From Haloquadratum walsbyi J07HQW1 (GTDB lineage Archaea > Halobacteriota > Halobacteria > Halobacteriales > Haloferacaceae): 64,000 bases of DNA. The position numbers were made by a program, and so were the translations under genes. Where the stretch lies: positions 2,739,436 to 2,803,435 of the forward strand of contig KE356560.1 in the NCBI GenBank assembly GCA_000415965.1, in the 5' to 3' direction. The notes under the pieces are model-generated. The model worked only from the letters and a program-made list of their open reading frames with translations. It was not told the DNA's origin and searched no databases. This document shows, in pieces, positions 10,831 to 23,002 of the stretch. Numbering within the stretch: position 1 is the stretch's first letter; the number at the start of each line of letters is the position of its first letter.

Positions 10831-12420
10831 TTATCCAACAAACGGTGGTGTGGCTGTTGGAAGTGAAATAAGCCAGAGACTGACGATTGTATAGCCCATC
10901 ATCACGAAAATGAAAGGATACTGACTGCGGATTGCCTGTAATCGACTTGGAAAGAGCTGATATGCCGTTGAATGTGCAACCCAGATTGCAATGAGATGTC
11001 CGCCGAGAATAAAGATAATATTGAGGGCTGAAATCCAAGCCGGCAGCGTCAGTACGATTGGATTTGACGGTGGTGAAAACGGGGACATGACGGCATCAAA
11101 TAGCGATGGCGACAGTGACAACAGGAATCCAGCGTAGTGTGCAAGGTGATAGCCAACGGCGATAGCGATGAGTGATGGAGCAAATGCAACAGTCAGATCA
11201 CCGGCTGACCATGTTGTGCGTAGTCGGTCCGCTGCGATGCGACCAGCAAACAAAAACGCAGCGTAGAATATCATAAATCCGCCAACGAATAGACCGAGAT
11301 ATGTAATCACCGGTGAGAGACCGCCCGCGACGATAGTTCGAATGATTGCACCACCTTGTGTTGTTGTGACAAATCCACTAAATGTGAGTTCCCAGACGAG
11401 CATAACAGCAATCGCAACATCCGAGCGATCCTCGATGAGCGCGAAGGATTGCTCTCTGAGAGATTTCGTCGGTGACGACGCTGTATTATCGGTATATCCT
11501 GATTGTGACTGCGGATGTGCTGTTGTTTCAGTCGCATCCACCTGATTAGCCCCACCGTCGGCGACTCTCTCCGATGATGATTCTTGGGTTTCATTCTCAT
11601 ATGTTGGGTCAACACGACTGTTACCGACGAGACCCATCGCAGGAATCCTTACTTCGACGTGCCCATCGGTCCATCTGAGTGGTGCTGCGCGGGAGTAGAA
11701 CCTGAAAAAAACCGATATCGGGTCGATATGCCGAAACCACGCCTCTTGGAAAATGAGAGCCCCGATGATACTCACAAGAAGATATCCGCAAACGACCAGC
11801 GCTAATAACGTTGGACGAGCAGTAATGCCGGTTGTTGTCTCAAGCCAGATCAATCCGAAGAGTCCGCAAAGCGCGGGCCATCGAGCAAAACGTGAGGGGT
11901 ATGGAATTTGAATTGAACTCGGTGCAATTGGCATCGCTGTGACAATGCTGCGTGCTGGATTAATTACCGTCCAGAGATTTCCGAATACGTATGATACAAT
12001 CGTGATTCCTGCACGGAACCCAGCAAAGATAATGATAATGGCAACATTTACTGTTGGAATCTGTGGTCCAGTCAGTCCACGGATAATGATAATCGCTGCG
12101 AGAAAGACACCAATCACCGCTCCAAGGTGACGTCCCCACTTATTAAGAGGACGCCATACCGAGAGCGTGCTATTCCATGTATGGATTCGATTTAGTAACC
12201 GTCGATCCGTAATAAATCCGGCAAGAAGCGCGGAGGCACCAATTGCAGCCCCACCGGTAGCAACATAGAGCCATCGCGGAACCGAAAGTGCATTTTCAGA
12301 CGCCTCCGATAATCCGACTGCTGCATTACTCGCTGCTGTCCCTCCGGTGAATATACCGATAACCGAGAGTATAATCGTGAAAGCAGCAATGACACAGGTT
12401 CGAAAGCGTATAGTTCTCAA
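10831..12420 (-). CDS. Polytopic membrane protein, last gene of the P19-like operon
   Basis: 529 aa with about 10-12 hydrophobic helices: an N-terminal segment from residue 8, then 50-70, 98-120, 125-150, 180-215, and after a long acidic loop (about 260-330) a second membrane block to the C-terminus. His residues recur in the C-terminal helices (GYHLAHY, GGHLIAIWVAHS), which could bind metal or heme. No family recognised. The start is TTG (12418-12420), overlapping the TGA of the small ORF upstream as TTGA; no ATG or GTG occurs before the first helix. As the membrane partner encoded with a P19-like lipoprotein it may be a metal transporter or reductase, by context only. Confidence 0.75.
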   Translation of the reverse strand: MRTIRFRTCVIAAFTIILSVIGIFTGGTAASNAAVGLSEASENALSVPRWLYVATGGAAIGASALLAGFITDRRLLNRIHTWNSTLSVWRPLNKWGRHLGAVIGVFLAAIIIIRGLTGPQIPTVNVAIIIIFAGFRAGITIVSYVFGNLWTVINPARSIVTAMPIAPSSIQIPYPSRFARWPALCGLFGLIWLETTTGITARPTLLALVVCGYLLVSIIGALIFQEAWFRHIDPISVFFRFYSRAAPLRWTDGHVEVRIPAMGLVGNSRVDPTYENETQESSSERVADGGANQVDATETTAHPQSQSGYTDNTASSPTKSLREQSFALIEDRSDVAIAVMLVWELTFSGFVTTTQGGAIIRTIVAGGLSPVITYLGLFVGGFMIFYAAFLFAGRIAADRLRTTWSAGDLTVAFAPSLIAIAVGYHLAHYAGFLLSLSPSLFDAVMSPFSPPSNPIVLTLPAWISALNIIFILGGHLIAIWVAHSTAYQLFPSRLQAIRSQYPFIFVMMGYTIVSLWLISLPTATPPFVG

Positions 12421-12704
12421 ATGTTTGACCCTGGAGACACCAATATACTGTTTCTGCGCCGTCCTGTGAGTTGTGGTTTGTTACCCTGAGTCTGATATGT
12501 ATTGATATCAGACTGATTCACACCGACTGTGGGATTATTGAGACACGATACCGAAGAGTCGGTATCATTCGATGAGGGACACCCGAACACATAGCGGTAA
12601 TCGAACGCCTCAGTAACAGGAGATGTCGATTGACGTCCTGGTGTGTTCTTTGATATAGATGAACCGGGTGTACCAGTCTTGGTTTGATCGTTATTAGGAC
12701 GCAT
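12417..12704 (-). CDS. Small hydrophilic ORF inside the P19-like operon
   Basis: 95 aa from ATG 12702-12704, rich in Ser, Thr, Asn and Gln, with two Cys (FGCPSS, VSCLNN). No known family. It begins within the last codons of the zinc-finger gene (ends 12694) and its TGA overlaps the TTG start of the membrane protein. This gap-free packing argues for a translated, coupled ORF; the low complexity argues against. It could instead be an unread linker. Confidence 0.4.
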   Translation of the reverse strand: MRPNNDQTKTGTPGSSISKNTPGRQSTSPVTEAFDYRYVFGCPSSNDTDSSVSCLNNPTVGVNQSDINTYQTQGNKPQLTGRRRNSILVSPGSNI

Positions 12705-12945
12705 AAATAACGTACAAAAACAGAAATCCGAAATATAATACCACGAGAACACCTAATGCGCGAATGCGGAATGATCGGATCGCGGCTGCCTCAGCGCGAT
12801 AGGCTTCGCGGTATGCATCCTGTTCGTCTTTTGTCATCGTCTCGGGGTGTCGAACACCACGATGGAGGATATGGTGGTCCGCTGCGTAGAAACGTCGCCC
12901 ACAGATATCACAGCGATATGTTGAGTCTGGCGTATTCTGTGACAT
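12694..12945 (-). CDS. Small zinc-finger protein with one membrane helix (DUF7410-like)
   Basis: 83 aa. The N-terminus has a C2H2-type finger, C13-DIC with HILHRGVRH (C-x2-C-x11-H-x3-H-like spacing), then a charged helix (TKDEQDAYREAYRAEAAAI) and a C-terminal hydrophobic helix (ALGVLVVLYFGFLFLYVIY). It is probably anchored with the finger in the cytoplasm. The start is 2 nt after the stop of the P19-like gene, so translation is coupled. This small family is found in haloarchaea; its role is unknown. Context suggests a regulator or assembly factor of the operon's metal-handling proteins. Confidence 0.75.
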   Translation of the reverse strand: MSQNTPDSTYRCDICGRRFYAADHHILHRGVRHPETMTKDEQDAYREAYRAEAAAIRSFRIRALGVLVVLYFGFLFLYVIYAS

Positions 12946-12947
12946 AA

Positions 12948-14117
12948 TTAGCGTATCTGAAACGTGAGTGAAACAGGATCCATGTTCATAAACGCAGTTT
13001 CATACCCATCGTGTCGAGCAATCTGAGGTGGGATTATCGTCGTAATTTCAAGCGTGAATTTATCTGACATGGGATCCGATAGGTGCGTCAAAGCAGGGAT
13101 TGATGTCCCATAATGATATCCAAGTGTTGGGTCAAGCGTCCGTGTCAGCCTTTTTGCTGTAATCACCTCATCATGCTGTGATATCGTTGCCTCCAATTGC
13201 ATCATTGGAAGTATGATGTTATTATATGGGGTCCGAGCAGAGACAACGAGATATGGACTGTCAGCCTTGCTTTCAGGTCCTCTCTCGATATCGGCATCAG
13301 TGTCGGTGTCTGCGTCTGTGTCGGTGTCAGCGTCAGTGATCACAAACACTTCGAGATGTGCATCATCAACAACGAGTGTTCCTGCATGATGATTTGCAAT
13401 CGAACTGACCGGGAAGGCCTGTCCAGTGGGGAGATCATTCATTGATACTGGATCGATTGCACCGGATGTTCCTCCATCAGTAGGCTGTCCAATCGAGATA
13501 TCATATATTTCGTCAGTCCTGAATGTAAACGGTATTGTTGCTGTTTTAACTGATTCGAACGCATTTGCGAACGAACCAGTCCGACGAAGTGACATCCCTC
13601 CGATAGTTATATCTGCAGTATAGTTACCTTCTCCACGTAGGCTGTAATTTGACCCGTAGTGAAGCCCCATCTGCTGTGAGATCATAGGATAGGCGACTTC
13701 TTGGGTAATTAACTCACCATCACGTTGAATAGTAATTGTGACACCAGAATCGAGTGGGAGTGGTTGGTTCGTTTGTGTATCCCATAGAACAGCCATCAGA
13801 TGGATATCGTCATTTGACTCAACTGGTGTTTTTTGTGTGTTCGAACCCGCGAGCGTCCAAAATCGATGAGGGTATGAATACATCAGCGCAACACCATAGC
13901 GTCCGGTCGTCGTTTGACCGTACATCTTCATCCCCTCTGTAATTGCTGGGATATATACGCCATCTGGGCGGTCTGACGCTAAGGGAGGGTCCCGCCATGC
14001 TGACTTCCGTTCAAACCCAATCTGACGGAGACATCCAGCAGAGCCTGCCAACGCCAGTGATGTAGCACCTCCGAGTAACCCACGTCGGGTGAGTAATAAT
14101 GGTGATGATGACGGCAT
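12948..14117 (-). CDS. Tat-exported lipoprotein with P19/Tp34-like domain
   Basis: 389 aa. Signal: RRGLLGGATSLALAGSAGC, a twin-arginine motif plus lipobox, so the protein is folded before export and anchored outside by lipid on Cys29. The first domain (about 45-190) matches the P19/Tp34 iron-transport-associated family: an early Met-rich EGMKMYGQ, a central DIHLMAVLWD, and QMGLHYGSNYSL with EGNYTADITIGG, equivalent to the HYG-N and G-Y strands of P19. These proteins bind Cu/Fe outside the cell and work with FTR1-type permeases. The second half (about 200-389) is a further beta-rich region with an Asp/Thr repeat (about 262-280, hexanucleotide-coded) and conserved His (NHHAG, GYHYGTS). It heads a four-ORF operon. 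Substrate unproven. Confidence 0.8.
   Translation of the reverse strand: MPSSSPLLLTRRGLLGGATSLALAGSAGCLRQIGFERKSAWRDPPLASDRPDGVYIPAITEGMKMYGQTTTGRYGVALMYSYPHRFWTLAGSNTQKTPVESNDDIHLMAVLWDTQTNQPLPLDSGVTITIQRDGELITQEVAYPMISQQMGLHYGSNYSLRGEGNYTADITIGGMSLRRTGSFANAFESVKTATIPFTFRTDEIYDISIGQPTDGGTSGAIDPVSMNDLPTGQAFPVSSIANHHAGTLVVDDAHLEVFVITDADTDTDADTDTDADIERGPESKADSPYLVVSARTPYNNIILPMMQLEATISQHDEVITAKRLTRTLDPTLGYHYGTSIPALTHLSDPMSDKFTLEITTIIPPQIARHDGYETAFMNMDPVSLTFQIR
13288..13336. repeat. Hexanucleotide microsatellite coding (DADTDT)n
   Basis: Degenerate 6-bp units (GTGTCG/GCATCA type) inside the P19-like gene encode an alternating Asp-Ala/Asp-Thr stretch. Confidence 0.7.
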
Positions 14118-17194: not shown

Positions 17195-20100
17195 ATGGAC
17201 ACACCCGATGTTGGTGCAGACGAGCTCGAATTGCCGATCAAACGCACCACTGGGGAGACGATTGAACAGCGATTAACGAATAACGCCTATCATAATATCC
17301 TTCCAGCTCGATATCTCCGGAAGGATGCCGATGGGAACCTTGCTGAGAGCCAAGAGGAGATCTTTGAGCGCGTCGCTCAAAATGTCGCTCTGGCGGAAGC
17401 TGTCTTTGAGGCTGACAAACAGGATACTGAGATTACAGTCACACCAGACCAACTCAAGCCAGATCACCCGCGTCGCGATGAACTCGCCGAGGATGTTTTC
17501 GGTACCGGTACGGGTGTAAATGACGATGCGGAAACGACGCTATCAGTGTATAATGTCAATAAGTTCGCATATGAGACAATTGTCCCCGAACTCCCTGATG
17601 AGATTCGACATCATGTGGAAGATGTCGCCGATGAGTTCGAGGATCTAATGAGCCGACTCTCGTTTATGCCGAACTCGCCAACGCTGATGAATGCTGGCGA
17701 TGAACTTCAACAGCTATCAGCCTGTTTCGTTGACTCACCGAGTGATGATATCTCAGATATTCACCAGACGGCAAAAGAAGCTGCTGAGGTCTTCCAGTGT
17801 CTGACCGCAGATTCGACTGTGATGGTGAAAAATAAAGGGATAATCAGCGTCTCAGAGGTCGAGGCTGGGGATCAAATCGCGCAGCGATCCGACACAGGAT
17901 TTCGATATCAATCGGTCGAGGAAACTCACGCATATGAGGACGCAGAGACACTGACTGTTACTCTCGATAATGGATTTACCATTCGTGGAACACCGAATCA
18001 CCGTCTTATGATTGACGGCGAGTGGACCCGAATCGACGAAATTCAACCCAATCAGGAGGTCCACTACGCACTTGGTTGGTTACGAGAGACGAATCAGGAA
18101 GCACCTGAGCTTCATCATCACTCAGACGGTGCCCACAATCAGACGGCAGATTCGACACCATCTGATAACACAGTACTGTCAAAACCGTCTGCAGGTAAAA
18201 AAGCCGACGCAGAGATGGCTACTGCAGGTAGTCTCCACGAATCGGCTGGTGCTGTGAGGCAATTCCACACTCAAGAGCAACTCATATCAGATGAGACTGC
18301 GTCTGCATCAGCATCTGGATCCATTCAGTATCCAGCGCAATTGAGTGAGGGGCTTGCTGAACTGCTCGGATTATGGGTTGATACCGGATTATATCATCAT
18401 AATGAGGTTCGATTCCGTGTTGAGCGTGAGAATGTTGCTGAATATATTGACCGACTCTCACAGCAACTGTTCGGGACACCGGCAGCAATTTCAGCTACTG
18501 ACGGAACGTATACCGTCGGTATCAGCGGTCAGACACTCACAGAATGGTGGAAGACAAACTTCGGGAGTAAGCCGGAGACAACTCAATCGACGTATGTTCC
18601 GCAGATAATCAAGCAGGCACCCGCAGGGATGATTGAATCGTTCCTCCGCGGATGCTTTACTACTGAAGGGACACTCTGTGAGGACGGGAAACCTACGGCT
18701 ACGGCTAAGCTTTGTCTCTCCTCGGAAGACGGCATCAACGACATTGCGAGCTTACTGATGGGTCTTGGCTATCCGGTCGAAAAATCCGTCGTTCATAATA
18801 CAGGCGGTGAATCACGTTACAGCGTGATGCCGGTGACTGATGAAGGATCTCGAGCGTTCCTTCGTGATGTTGGATTCATCGATGAACGACGAGAGATTGG
18901 TCTTGCAGATGTTGAATCACCGGACTCTTATGACTCATCTGTCGGTAATGACACATATGCGGTGAACGTTGCGTCCGTGGTTCACTCTCCACCCGCGACC
19001 GTCTATGACGTTACTGTTGCAGACAATCATGAGTACATTACAGACGGGATTGTCTCTCACAACAGCGGCGGTGGAATGGGGTATGCTTTCTGGAAGCTTC
19101 GCCCATATGGTGATTCGGTCGGATCAACGGGTGGCATTGCCTCTGGACCGATTACATTCATGCGCACATACGATCAGATGTGTGAGACAATCGCTCAAGG
19201 TGGTGCCAGACGTGGTGCACAAATGGGAGTCATGCGTATCTCGCACCCTGATGTCATCCAGTTCATTCATGCGAAGAATAAGGATGTGTCACTCGCACAC
19301 TCATTACGGCTGAATGACCCCGATGACTTCACTCATAATTCATTTGCCGAAGCGCTTGAAGAAGCCCGTGAACTGATTGATGAAGAAGGGCGTGTTCCTG
19401 AACACCTCCGCAATGCTGTCGAAGGGCATCTCTCGAATTTCAATATCTCAGTCGGCGTCACTGATGAGTTCATGGAGGCGCTATTTGCGGATGAAGAGTT
19501 CACGTTCACGAATCCGCGCACCGAAGAGCCACATATCGCTACATCAGAAACAAAAGAATTGTACGAGCTCCATAATCTCGGCGAGCACGTCGAAGTCGGA
19601 GAAGAACTTTCAGTCCCCGCAGAGGAACTGTGGGATCATATCGTCAGCGGGGCCCATGAGAATGGTGAACCCGGCGTAATTTATCTTGAGCGTGTCAACA
19701 AAGAGCACTCATTCGACGTAGAGAAATATTCCGAGCATGAAATATTGGCAACGAATCCATGTGGTGAACAGCCGCTTGAGGAGTATGAGGCATGTAATCT
19801 TGGGCACATTAACCTCTCAACATTAGCTGATAAAGACGCCCCAGACTGGCGAGTCTGGTATGATAATAACGGCGACGCATATGATAATCTCGATGACGCC
19901 GCTGAGGCGTTCATGCACGAGGCAATCGATATGGATGCGTTTGACCGTCGAATCGAGTCGGGTACCCGCTTCCTTGAAAATGTGGTCACGATGTCAGACT
20001 TCCCGGTTGATGAAATTGAAGCAACTGTTCGTGATATGCGAAAGATCGGTCTCGGAATTATGGGGCTCGCTCAATTGTATATTCAAATTGGCGTTCGATA

Positions 20101-23002
20101 CGGGTCCGAGGAGGCTAATGCTATTGCCGAACAGTTGATGACGCATATCAATCACGAGTCAAAGTGGGCATCTCATGAGCTTGCAACGGAGCGTGGAACA
20201 TTCAACGATTGGACAGAGTCAAAATACGCGAATCCAACGGAGTATCGTGAATGGTTCGAACACCACACCGGGCTTGATGCAAGCGACTGGGAAGATGGAT
20301 TCTTAATTCGTAATCATAACACGACGACAATCGCACCGACAGGATGTGTCGAGGAGAACGCACTCATCTCAACTGATGAGGGTCTCCAACCAATCAAAGA
20401 TCTCGATGAGACAACAGCGGAGTTCGAACAGTGGGACGAGATTGAAGTCGGCGTCACCACCGATGGCGGGACAAAAACAGCGACTGCCGTCTATGACAAC
20501 GGGTTTGCTGACGTTCGACAAATCCAGACCGAGGGCGGATTCAGTATTGCTGCAACGCCTAATCACCGCTTCCGAACACTCTCCAATGATGGCAAATACA
20601 CATGGAAGGAAGCAGGTGATTTCGAAGCTGGTGATCGAATTATGCTTCAACGAGACAGCTTTGACGATGGTTCTCGTGTCCCGCTCAAGACGAGCGGGCG
20701 GGTAAATGAGACACAAGACACGACTGAAGATCCTGACTTGGCATTACCGGATAAGATGACATCCGAGCTTGCCGAATTCCTTGGCTACTTTATGGGCAAT
20801 GGGCACGTTTCTGATGAGATCAACGTCGGTGTCGAGTGTGTTGTTGACTCGGATGCGACAGAACTCCGCAGCTATCTCAGTGATCTTGGAGAACGACTGT
20901 TCGGTGTCACGCCTACCACCGAGAGTCAAGCAGTGGATCAAGTGTTGTCGTTCCGTGGCTCTCAGCTCTTACAGTACTTTGAGGACAACGGTTGGACGAA
21001 AGCCGACACGGGTCACAGCAGAAATGCAGCAGCTGCAGCTGCAGCTGCATTTATTCCTGAACAAGTTCTCAAAGCCGACAAGCAGATTATTAAAGCGTTC
21101 CTTCGAGGAGTATTTGAGGCTACTGGGACCGTCGAAGAACGTGTAGAAATGCTTACGCCATCGACGGATTTCGCTGACCAACTTCAGAGTCTACTGTTGT
21201 CACTTGGGTACGTTTTCACCAGAGACACGACGGAAGTGATCAATACAGACGGTTCTTATAGTGGTCACCCACAACAGAGCCTTCGTGGGGCAACTCGGCG
21301 CGAGGATAAGCGATTCATGAATGAGGTTGGCTTTTTGACAGAGTCAGAATCAGGGTCAAATGAATTCGACCTGACCACACAATCATCGAACAACGACACA
21401 TATCCGTCGTCTGTTATCGACTACGTGCAGGCACTCGATGGGTATGACTCAGTCAGTCAGTCTCTCAAGAGCCGTCTAAATCAATCACAGATTGATGGGG
21501 TTATCTCTCGAAGACTTATCAAGGATATCGAGGCAGAAACCGCTAAGACGGTGAGCATTGAGGGTCGCGAACTAACCGAATTCTACGCTGCAACTGTCGA
21601 ATCAGTCACGAAAGAGACAGCATACACCAAGGACATCAGCGTCCCGTCAAATAACACATACATTGCAGACGGGTTTGTCACCCACAACACTACTTCGATG
21701 ATCGGCAACACGACTGGTGGGTGTGAGCCGATATATAATGTGGCGTATTATAAGAACGTCTCTGATGATGTGCAAGGTGATGAGATGCTGGTAGAGTTTG
21801 ATGATTATTTCCTTCGTGTGCTAGAGCAAAACGACATTGATGTCGAAGCGGTCAAACAAGAAGCCCAAGAGCAGATGGCTCAGAACGAGTTTGATGGCGT
21901 TGACGGGCTTGAGACCGTTCCAAAAGCGATTGGAGAGTTATTCGTCGTTACATCCGATCTCTCCGGGAAAGAGCACGCTGGTGTCCAGTGTGCCTGTCAA
22001 GAAGGCATTGACTCTGCAATTTCGAAGACCTGCAACTTCCCAAGTTCTGCGACAAAAGAAGATATGGACGAAGTGTATCGGTATATCTACGAGAACGGCG
22101 GCAAGGGAGTAACCGTCTATCGCGATGGAACACGCTCGAAGCAGGTATTAACAACCCGAGCACAAAACACTGAGTTCGCAGATGAAAATGAAGCCGCAGC
22201 AACGCTCGTTGAGCAAATCGAAGAGGTGTTCGGCGGTGTTGAGAGCTTCTTAGAGAATGACACCGTTCGCGACACCGTAGATGATGAGATTGATCGCGTT
22301 CTCGCGGCTGCAGATGGAGAGGTTGCATTAGGCAAAAAGCGTCCACGACCAGATGTCCTTCATGGAGTCACACAGCGGATTGACACCGGATATGGAAAGC
22401 TGTATGTGAATATCAATGAGGACGATGCTGGACGTCCATTTGAGCTCTTTGCGAACATTGGAAATTCGGGTGGTTTCACTGCGTCATTCACTGAGGCGCT
22501 TGCAAAGACTGTTTCGACAGCACTGCGATCAGGTGTTGATCCGCGTGAGATTGCAAGTGAACTGCAAGGTATCCGTAGTCCAAAAGTTGCCTGGGATAAA
22601 GGTGAGCAGATCAACTCCATTCCGGATGCGGTTGGAACTGCAATGCGTCGATATCTTGATGGTGAAATTGAGAAAGGATATCCACAGCAGCAGAATCTTA
22701 CCGAGGTAGGAACTGATGCAGGGGCTGAACCGCGCGCTGACTCAGAGCCAGAGCCAGAATCAAATGCGAGAGCACCTGGTCACGAAACGGATGGTGGTGC
22801 AGCAGTGACGGACGATGCCGTATCAACAAACCGTAATAACGGATCTCTACCATCCGCGAGCGATGAGAATAATGATACTGACGATGTTGATACTCTCGTC
22901 GCTGCCGGTGAGAGCCCCGAATGTCCTGAGTGTGGAAGTATGTCGTTGTATTACTCTGAAGGGTGTAAGACGTGTGAGTCATGTGGATGGTCTGAGTGTT
23001 GA
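17195..23002 (+). CDS. nrdJ: Adenosylcobalamin-dependent ribonucleotide reductase with two inteins
   Basis: Class II reductase making deoxyribonucleotides by a B12-generated thiyl radical. The precursor is 1935 aa. Removing inteins (residues 202-623 and 1051-1498) leaves 1065 aa, about normal. Extein landmarks: MPNSPTLMNAG and QLSACFVDS (first redox Cys), SGGGMGYAFWKLRP, NPCGEQPLEEYEACNLG (radical Cys, Glu and second redox Cys), TTTIAPTG joined to TTSMIGNTTGG, then a TSCPD domain (KLYVNINEDDAGRPFELFANIG) and a C-terminal zinc ribbon with active Cys (CPECGSMS, CKTCESCGWSEC). An acidic low-complexity linker (about 1840-1910) precedes the ribbon. An SD-like GGAGG lies 8 nt before the ATG, less common here than leaderless starts. 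It is the only reductase in the window. Confidence 0.95.
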   Translation: MDTPDVGADELELPIKRTTGETIEQRLTNNAYHNILPARYLRKDADGNLAESQEEIFERVAQNVALAEAVFEADKQDTEITVTPDQLKPDHPRRDELAEDVFGTGTGVNDDAETTLSVYNVNKFAYETIVPELPDEIRHHVEDVADEFEDLMSRLSFMPNSPTLMNAGDELQQLSACFVDSPSDDISDIHQTAKEAAEVFQCLTADSTVMVKNKGIISVSEVEAGDQIAQRSDTGFRYQSVEETHAYEDAETLTVTLDNGFTIRGTPNHRLMIDGEWTRIDEIQPNQEVHYALGWLRETNQEAPELHHHSDGAHNQTADSTPSDNTVLSKPSAGKKADAEMATAGSLHESAGAVRQFHTQEQLISDETASASASGSIQYPAQLSEGLAELLGLWVDTGLYHHNEVRFRVERENVAEYIDRLSQQLFGTPAAISATDGTYTVGISGQTLTEWWKTNFGSKPETTQSTYVPQIIKQAPAGMIESFLRGCFTTEGTLCEDGKPTATAKLCLSSEDGINDIASLLMGLGYPVEKSVVHNTGGESRYSVMPVTDEGSRAFLRDVGFIDERREIGLADVESPDSYDSSVGNDTYAVNVASVVHSPPATVYDVTVADNHEYITDGIVSHNSGGGMGYAFWKLRPYGDSVGSTGGIASGPITFMRTYDQMCETIAQGGARRGAQMGVMRISHPDVIQFIHAKNKDVSLAHSLRLNDPDDFTHNSFAEALEEARELIDEEGRVPEHLRNAVEGHLSNFNISVGVTDEFMEALFADEEFTFTNPRTEEPHIATSETKELYELHNLGEHVEVGEELSVPAEELWDHIVSGAHENGEPGVIYLERVNKEHSFDVEKYSEHEILATNPCGEQPLEEYEACNLGHINLSTLADKDAPDWRVWYDNNGDAYDNLDDAAEAFMHEAIDMDAFDRRIESGTRFLENVVTMSDFPVDEIEATVRDMRKIGLGIMGLAQLYIQIGVRYGSEEANAIAEQLMTHINHESKWASHELATERGTFNDWTESKYANPTEYREWFEHHTGLDASDWEDGFLIRNHNTTTIAPTGCVEENALISTDEGLQPIKDLDETTAEFEQWDEIEVGVTTDGGTKTATAVYDNGFADVRQIQTEGGFSIAATPNHRFRTLSNDGKYTWKEAGDFEAGDRIMLQRDSFDDGSRVPLKTSGRVNETQDTTEDPDLALPDKMTSELAEFLGYFMGNGHVSDEINVGVECVVDSDATELRSYLSDLGERLFGVTPTTESQAVDQVLSFRGSQLLQYFEDNGWTKADTGHSRNAAAAAAAAFIPEQVLKADKQIIKAFLRGVFEATGTVEERVEMLTPSTDFADQLQSLLLSLGYVFTRDTTEVINTDGSYSGHPQQSLRGATRREDKRFMNEVGFLTESESGSNEFDLTTQSSNNDTYPSSVIDYVQALDGYDSVSQSLKSRLNQSQIDGVISRRLIKDIEAETAKTVSIEGRELTEFYAATVESVTKETAYTKDISVPSNNTYIADGFVTHNTTSMIGNTTGGCEPIYNVAYYKNVSDDVQGDEMLVEFDDYFLRVLEQNDIDVEAVKQEAQEQMAQNEFDGVDGLETVPKAIGELFVVTSDLSGKEHAGVQCACQEGIDSAISKTCNFPSSATKEDMDEVYRYIYENGGKGVTVYRDGTRSKQVLTTRAQNTEFADENEAAATLVEQIEEVFGGVESFLENDTVRDTVDDEIDRVLAAADGEVALGKKRPRPDVLHGVTQRIDTGYGKLYVNINEDDAGRPFELFANIGNSGGFTASFTEALAKTVSTALRSGVDPREIASELQGIRSPKVAWDKGEQINSIPDAVGTAMRRYLDGEIEKGYPQQQNLTEVGTDAGAEPRADSEPEPESNARAPGHETDGGAAVTDDAVSTNRNNGSLPSASDENNDTDDVDTLVAAGESPECPECGSMSLYYSEGCKTCESCGWSEC
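17798..19063 (+). other. Intein 1 in NrdJ (422 aa)
   Basis: In-frame protein intron. It begins with Cys202 (CLTADSTVMVKNKG, block A), has block B GFTIRGTPNHRLMI, and ends VADNHEYITDGIVSHN with Ser as +1 residue; all splicing residues (C1, TxxH, H-N, +1 Ser) are present. It interrupts the substrate-site loop ..VFQ/SGGGMG.., a known insertion point in ribonucleotide reductases. The endonuclease region shows two degraded LAGLIDADG blocks, LAELLGLWVDTG and FLRGCFTTEG, where catalytic Asp positions are changed. A low-complexity insert (about residues 295-375 of the precursor) separates splicing and endonuclease parts. Confidence 0.95.
20345..21688 (+). other. Intein 2 in NrdJ (448 aa)
   Basis: Begins with Cys1051 (CVEENALISTDEG), block B GFSIAATPNHRFRT, ends SVPSNNTYIADGFVTHN with +1 Thr. 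It interrupts the conserved ..TIAPTG/TTSMIG.. loop. Endonuclease blocks read LAEFLGYFMGNGHV and FLRGVFEATGTV: Asn and Thr stand where the metal-binding Asp is normally found, so DNA cutting is doubtful while splicing residues are intact. It carries a run of eight Ala (1278-1285). Confidence 0.95.
21026..21049 (+). repeat. (GCAGCT)n tract coding eight alanines in intein 2
   Basis: Alternating GCA/GCT codons form a near-perfect hexanucleotide repeat inside the intein endonuclease region. Confidence 0.8.

Follow-up and report, generated by a model that had tools for sequence, protein, structure and literature searches.

What does a haloarchaeon whose genome lacks an FTR1 permease do with an exported protein of the P19 iron-uptake family? 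The question is raised by a gene cluster in a 64,000-nucleotide stretch of Haloquadratum walsbyi J07HQW1 (contig KE356560.1, positions 2,739,436 to 2,803,435; hereafter the window), taken from a genome that is a single 3.48 Mb contig. The cluster lies entirely on the minus strand and encodes P1, a lipoprotein with two P19-like domains, P2, a small zinc-finger membrane protein, and P4, a polytopic membrane protein of an unannotated family. The explanation we favour, which we regard as an even call, is that these three proteins form a haloarchaeal copper-trafficking module in which a P4-P2 core serves the maturation of membrane cuproenzymes and P1 is the outer copper binder. Anchored in the membrane at the outer face, P1 would bind copper, probably Cu(I), at a leftover His/Met site; P4, with its conserved intramembrane Glu, Tyr and His, would help to move or insert the copper held by P1, a direction of transport that we infer; and P2 may act as the constant small partner of P4 on the cytosolic side. 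In organisms without Cox11 and Caa3_CtaG, the core would probably serve cuproenzymes of the membrane, above all the aa3-type cytochrome oxidase. Homology, pairing of the genes, replacement of residues and genomic association are what the sequences show; copper as the ligand, the oxidase as target and the part played by P2 are inferred from them. The module is probably devoted to respiratory copper rather than to iron import, because the iron site of P1 has been lost to Met and because P4 and P2 recur beside copper enzymes. A more specific version is held only tentatively: P4 (with P2) would be the factor, so far missing, that delivers copper or fills CuB in archaeal aa3-type oxidases in place of Cox11/CtaG, the same family would serve the copper membrane monooxygenases (CuMMO) of actinobacteria, and P1 would be a P19 that evolved from iron to copper.

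The P19-like lipoprotein P1 and its putative metal sites

P1 contains the DIHLM and HYGSN blocks from which, together with a twin-arginine (Tat) lipobox, the original prediction had recognized a P19-like protein, and this assignment is borne out. The twin arginines (R11 and R12) and the lipobox cysteine (C29) are kept in all 49 sequences compared. P1 matches the Pfam models Iron_transport/P19 (PF10634; 25.5 bits, cut-off 21) and DUF7350 (PF24041; 143 bits), and both domains are present in 21 of 21 aligned homologues. A single-sequence search of the PDB with P1 gave no match; a profile search matched FtrA and P19, with E values from 3.6e-6 to 2e-3. In hhalign comparisons, the N-terminal half is homologous to bacterial P19s encoded beside FTR1 (E=2.4e-9) and to the C-terminal half (E=7e-9), while in the DUF7350 half the match is to the C-terminus of P19 (E=0.0045) and pairs RHxDKETG with RH369DGYET. 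Because the halves are homologous and each aligns with P19, P1 is a tandem P19 whose second copy is degenerate. An Asp/Thr microsatellite-like insertion between the domains (DADTDTDADTDTDAD; window 13277-13330) is much longer than in relatives. A recurrent in-frame TGA considered in P1 homologues was the normal C-terminal stop codon in the four that were checked.

The two metal sites described for P19 have had different fates in P1. The copper-site ligands of P19, which we take to be H42, M88, H95 and H132 (P19 numbering), find counterparts for the first three in P1 H106, M145 and H153, invariant in 49 of 49 sequences. An acidic patch formed by Glu44, Asp46 and Asp92 has been proposed as the P19 iron site (iron/Mn; PMC9174327). 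Glu44 is replaced by Met (M108) in every one of the 49 P1 sequences, none of them has an acidic residue at the positions of Asp46 and Asp92, and an invariant Met (M150) adjoins the latter. With three of the four copper-site residues kept and the iron-site carboxylates lost, P1 is most naturally taken for a copper protein and not an iron carrier, and the invariant E61, M63 and H84 are further possible ligands. Given this result, many haloarchaeal ‘iron transporter’ annotations are probably wrong about iron, and the residues named here are the ones to examine. P1 shares with the P19/FetP/FtrA proteins (PF10634) of FTR1-type iron uptake the domain itself, three of the four copper-site His/Met residues in its N-terminal domain and an exported, surface-side location. 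It differs from them in its tandem arrangement within one chain, its Tat lipoprotein nature, the replacement of the iron-site Glu/Asp, and its partners, which are P2 and P4 instead of FTR1.

P4 and its small partner P2

P4 is a membrane protein with about 11 predicted hydrophobic segments, and one more helix is likely near residues ~410-430 (11-12 in total). As previously noted, it belongs to no known family: neither Pfam nor NCBIfam has a matching model, no Pfam model matches more than 2 of 41 relatives, none of them credibly, and the P4 profile finds no relative in the PDB. E194, Y213, D233, Y424, H428, H475 and T511 are nearly invariant among the 41 sequences, H483 is kept in 37, and H425 is mostly kept; the earlier description of the helices as His-rich was thus overstated. 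Homologues in actinobacteria align over 406 columns (hhalign E=2e-40) and retain E194, H428, H475 and H483.

Several candidate relatives of P4 were rejected. FTR1 shows no similarity (hhalign E=0.35); CopD gives neither a PF05425 match nor a convincing alignment (E=0.83 against seven CopD translations, a few of them, two or three, probably misframed); and Caa3_CtaG and Cox11 (PF09678/PF04442) match none of the 41 sequences in Pfam searches (hhalign E=0.63 against CtaG). An internal duplication is not claimed (N half against C half, hhalign E=0.06), 73 pattern matches in viral contigs searched with P4 contained no relative, and P4 does not appear in the passages available from a survey of the Haloferax mediterranei copper machinery. 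There are parallels of another kind. Caa3_CtaG and CopD-CtaG fusions have been proposed as membrane proteins that insert CuB into caa3 oxidase and, like P4, are polytopic, carry conserved His and an acidic residue, and are encoded by oxidase-linked genes (PMC9145763); P4 shows no sequence or profile similarity to Caa3_CtaG, which is itself absent from the 14 haloarchaea tested. The CopD copper permease domain (PF05425) also spans the membrane several times and is thought to move copper, but has no profile match to P4.

P2 adjoins P4 in 31 of 42 loci, each locus being a stretch of roughly 12-15 kb. Its finger, C-x2-C-x12-H-x4-H, is invariant in 24 homologues (C12, C15, H28 and H33) and falls below the cut-off of the Pfam zf-C2H2 model (E=0.12). 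The only hydrophobic segment, residues 63-81, is C-terminal and flanked by Arg, in agreement with the initial description of a zinc-finger membrane protein. The position of this single Arg-flanked segment, after the finger, suggests a tail-anchored protein whose finger faces the cytosol. A regulatory role, first suggested for P2, gains no support from these features, nor do they speak against it.

Genomic company and competing explanations

P4 is frequently encoded beside cytochrome oxidase. Oxidase genes (cox1, 2, 3, 4 or heme A synthase) lie within ~6 kb of P4 in 16 of the 42 loci, where ~2-4% would be expected, and these 16 loci span several GTDB families. At one of them (L069), P4, P2, cox2, cox1, cox3 and cox4 make up one apparent operon, and a heme-synthase-like gene has the same direction. 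Across 60 genomes, P4 is present in 34 of 35 with an aa3-like COX1 versus 11 of 25 without (Fisher p=3e-6, uncorrected for kinship); outside the genus of the window the figures are 19 of 20 versus 9 of 23 (p=1e-4). Caa3_CtaG and Cox11 were found in none of 14 haloarchaea tested, with control genomes positive, and since all 14 carry COX1, there is room for another copper-insertion factor. Even for the aa3 oxidase of Bacillus, no CuB copper-insertion factor is known (PMC9145763). With members in haloarchaea and actinobacteria, a link to copper enzymes and no entry in Pfam or NCBIfam, the P4 family offers a concrete candidate for supplying CuB copper without Cox11/CtaG.

The association extends to other copper enzymes. 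In Mycolicibacterium chubuense the P4 homologue follows the genes of a CuMMO, the copper hydrocarbon monooxygenase, in M. gallinarum it adjoins a multicopper oxidase, and Halobacterium plasmid copies have NosD, multicopper oxidase, plastocyanin and CtaA as neighbors. Of the metal-uptake or copper-handling system first proposed, the copper option gains from these contexts, cytochrome oxidase above all, whereas uptake as such does not agree with the lost carboxylates of P1. The co-occurrence expected of the genes elsewhere holds tightly for P2 and P4, but only some haloarchaea have P1 beside them, common though P1 is in itself (65 of 78 near-complete genomes). Small His-containing lipoproteins are translationally coupled to mycobacterial P4 homologues (L076:9351-9788 and L080:7210-7659); a by-eye likeness to cupredoxins is not claimed, as the one fully tested matched nothing in Pfam, NCBIfam or the PDB. 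The genome of the window also has a second locus (L033:6015-10995; G000:C1:2436017-2440994) with P4-like, beta-propeller (PQQ_2-like) and P1-like genes and without P2.

Several observations weigh against the copper module. Firstly, P19 H132 has no counterpart in the N-terminal domain of P1, its possible equivalent being aligned only in the second domain, at H369. Secondly, the P1B ATPase encoded next to the module in Haloferax, where it comes directly after P1-P2-P4, and in Haloarcula looks like a Zn/Cd-type and not a Cu-type enzyme: it carries a DAGM motif in the last transmembrane region, and the Haloarcula protein scores 525 bits with Zn/Cd models versus 437 bits with the Cu subfamily. A Cu-type ATPase was accordingly rejected as module partner, and this neighbor counts against a pure copper story. 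Thirdly, no cox genes lie near the module in its own genome (COX1 at 910910, P4 at 2750269) or in its nearest relatives. The cut-off for an aa3-like COX1 (E<=1e-140) was, moreover, set after seeing the data, and a COX1 homologue, mostly of a different, fused type, occurs in 6 of 8 near-complete genomes without P4 (7 of 9 overall), so P4 is not general to all oxidases. Finally, AlphaFold2 models of P4 and P1 reached predicted local distance difference test (pLDDT) scores of only 34 and 39, from alignments of two sequences (window and L031), and were not used.

Among the alternatives, the one that survives best, although we think it unlikely, makes P4-P2 an assembly or stability factor of the oxidase with no copper role, such as heme insertion or subunit chaperoning, and P1 an incidental neighbor. 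It accounts for the tight cox linkage and the co-occurrence with aa3-like COX1, no more than 10 of the 30 best P1 loci have P4 within 1.5 kb, and the conserved transmembrane Tyr and His of P4 could ligate heme. The CuMMO and multicopper oxidase beside the actinobacterial homologues argue against it, both enzymes being heme-free, as do paralogous loci (L033, L059 and L062) where P4-like, P1-like and beta-propeller genes occur together without cox.

Iron uptake is unlikely too, and slightly more so. Here P1 would be an iron-binding P19, P4 would stand in place of the FTR1 permease, and the DyP-type peroxidase homologue DUF7405 would serve as EfeB at related loci. The P19 fold and the ‘iron transporter’ annotation of P1 fit this view, as does the absence of FTR1, which had been predicted and is confirmed (no PF03239 match in the genome, four control genomes positive); three loci show direct coupling of a P1 homologue to a Tat protein of the DyP-like DUF7405 kind. 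A copper site is, judging from the title of a 2020 Metallomics paper cited in PMC10783030, required by the P19 of FTR1 systems as well. The missing carboxylates in 49 of 49 P1 sequences, the lack of relationship between P4 and FTR1, and the company of P4-P2, which consists of oxidase and other copper-enzyme genes and not of iron genes, count against this view. The resemblance to EfeUOB/FetMP-type uptake is limited to a P19-like protein and the DyP-like Tat protein at related loci, whereas EfeU/FTR1 is lacking here, the locus in the window has no DUF7405 gene, and the iron-site residues of P1 are gone. The DUF7405 Tat proteins, whose similarity to DyP peroxidases is weak, overlap the start of the P1 homologue (L041:9701-12056, L053:11813-14246 and L073:14747-17102), an EfeB-like pairing without FTR1. 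A CopD gene is present elsewhere in the genome (G000:C1:774495).

The least probable alternative is general heavy-metal (Zn/Cd) homeostasis, with the module working alongside the adjacent P1B ATPase and a CDF exporter and P2 sensing zinc: the Haloferax array, the Zn/Cd-like ATPase, CDF genes close to the plasmid copies and the finger of P2 favor it, but this context is mostly plasmid-borne, and plasmids gather metal-resistance genes, while the chromosomal pattern is oxidase-linked and the invariant Met ligands of P1 fit Cu(I) better than Zn(II).

Locus layout and the third reading frame

The locus had been described as a gap-free operon of four genes. The cluster is real, with P1 and P2 2 nt apart, but it comprises three genes, as the third open reading frame (ORF), a small hydrophilic one, is not supported as a separate conserved protein. 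The P1-P2-P4 order is identical in the close relatives L031 and L034, the former from H. walsbyi J07HQW2, which of the named relatives in the contigs searched is the closest (P4 identity 78%). In both, one long ORF of ~621-624 aa starts at a conserved ATG overlapping the P2 stop, an overlap of 11 nt in related genomes, and the stretch matching the third ORF is in the P4 frame. In the window the two frames differ: a net 5-nt change relative to L031 and L034 (a frameshift) lies near 12473-12482, and the candidate upstream ATG for P4, at 12704, is out of frame. Substitutions between L031 and L034 by codon position number 42/39/41 in the third-ORF stretch versus 86/56/203 in the P4 body. Because the relatives’ frame continues into P4 and the substitutions are flat across codon positions, this stretch is either a spacer or an unconstrained, fast-evolving N-terminal tail of P4 that is broken here by the frameshift. 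The frameshift is either real or a sequencing artefact—assembly indel errors are possible because this single-contig genome scores only 89.6% complete. The TTG start of P4 does overlap the upstream TGA (TTGA), but the coupling once read into it is a by-product.

Table 1. Features of the P1-P2-P4 cluster, in window coordinates.
Feature	Position	Strand	Basis
P1, Tat-exported lipoprotein with tandem P19-like domains (Iron_transport PF10634 + DUF7350 PF24041), 389 aa	12948..14117	-	
P1 Tat signal and lipobox (RRGLL...SAGC29)	14031..14117	-	R11, R12, C29 conservation
P1 N-terminal P19-like domain, residues 48-212, with H106, M108, M145, M150, H153	13482..13976	-	hhalign and residue alignment
P1 C-terminal domain, residues 213-389, DUF7350, degenerate second P19-like repeat, RH369DGYE373T motif	12951..13481	-	hhalign
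P2, C2H2 zinc finger and one C-terminal transmembrane anchor, 83 aa	12694..12945	-	invariant finger, one hydrophobic segment
Third ORF, not in the P4 frame here; a spacer or a 5' extension of P4	12417..12752	-	relatives’ frame, substitution pattern
P4, polytopic membrane protein, unannotated family, 529 aa from TTG	10831..12420	-	ORF, profile searches, hydrophobic segments

Elsewhere in the window, a 1935-aa ORF (17195-23002) resembles a ribonucleotide reductase with two inteins: besides a GGGMGYAFWKLRP block and another block of 21 residues, it contains two long insertions that end in HN.

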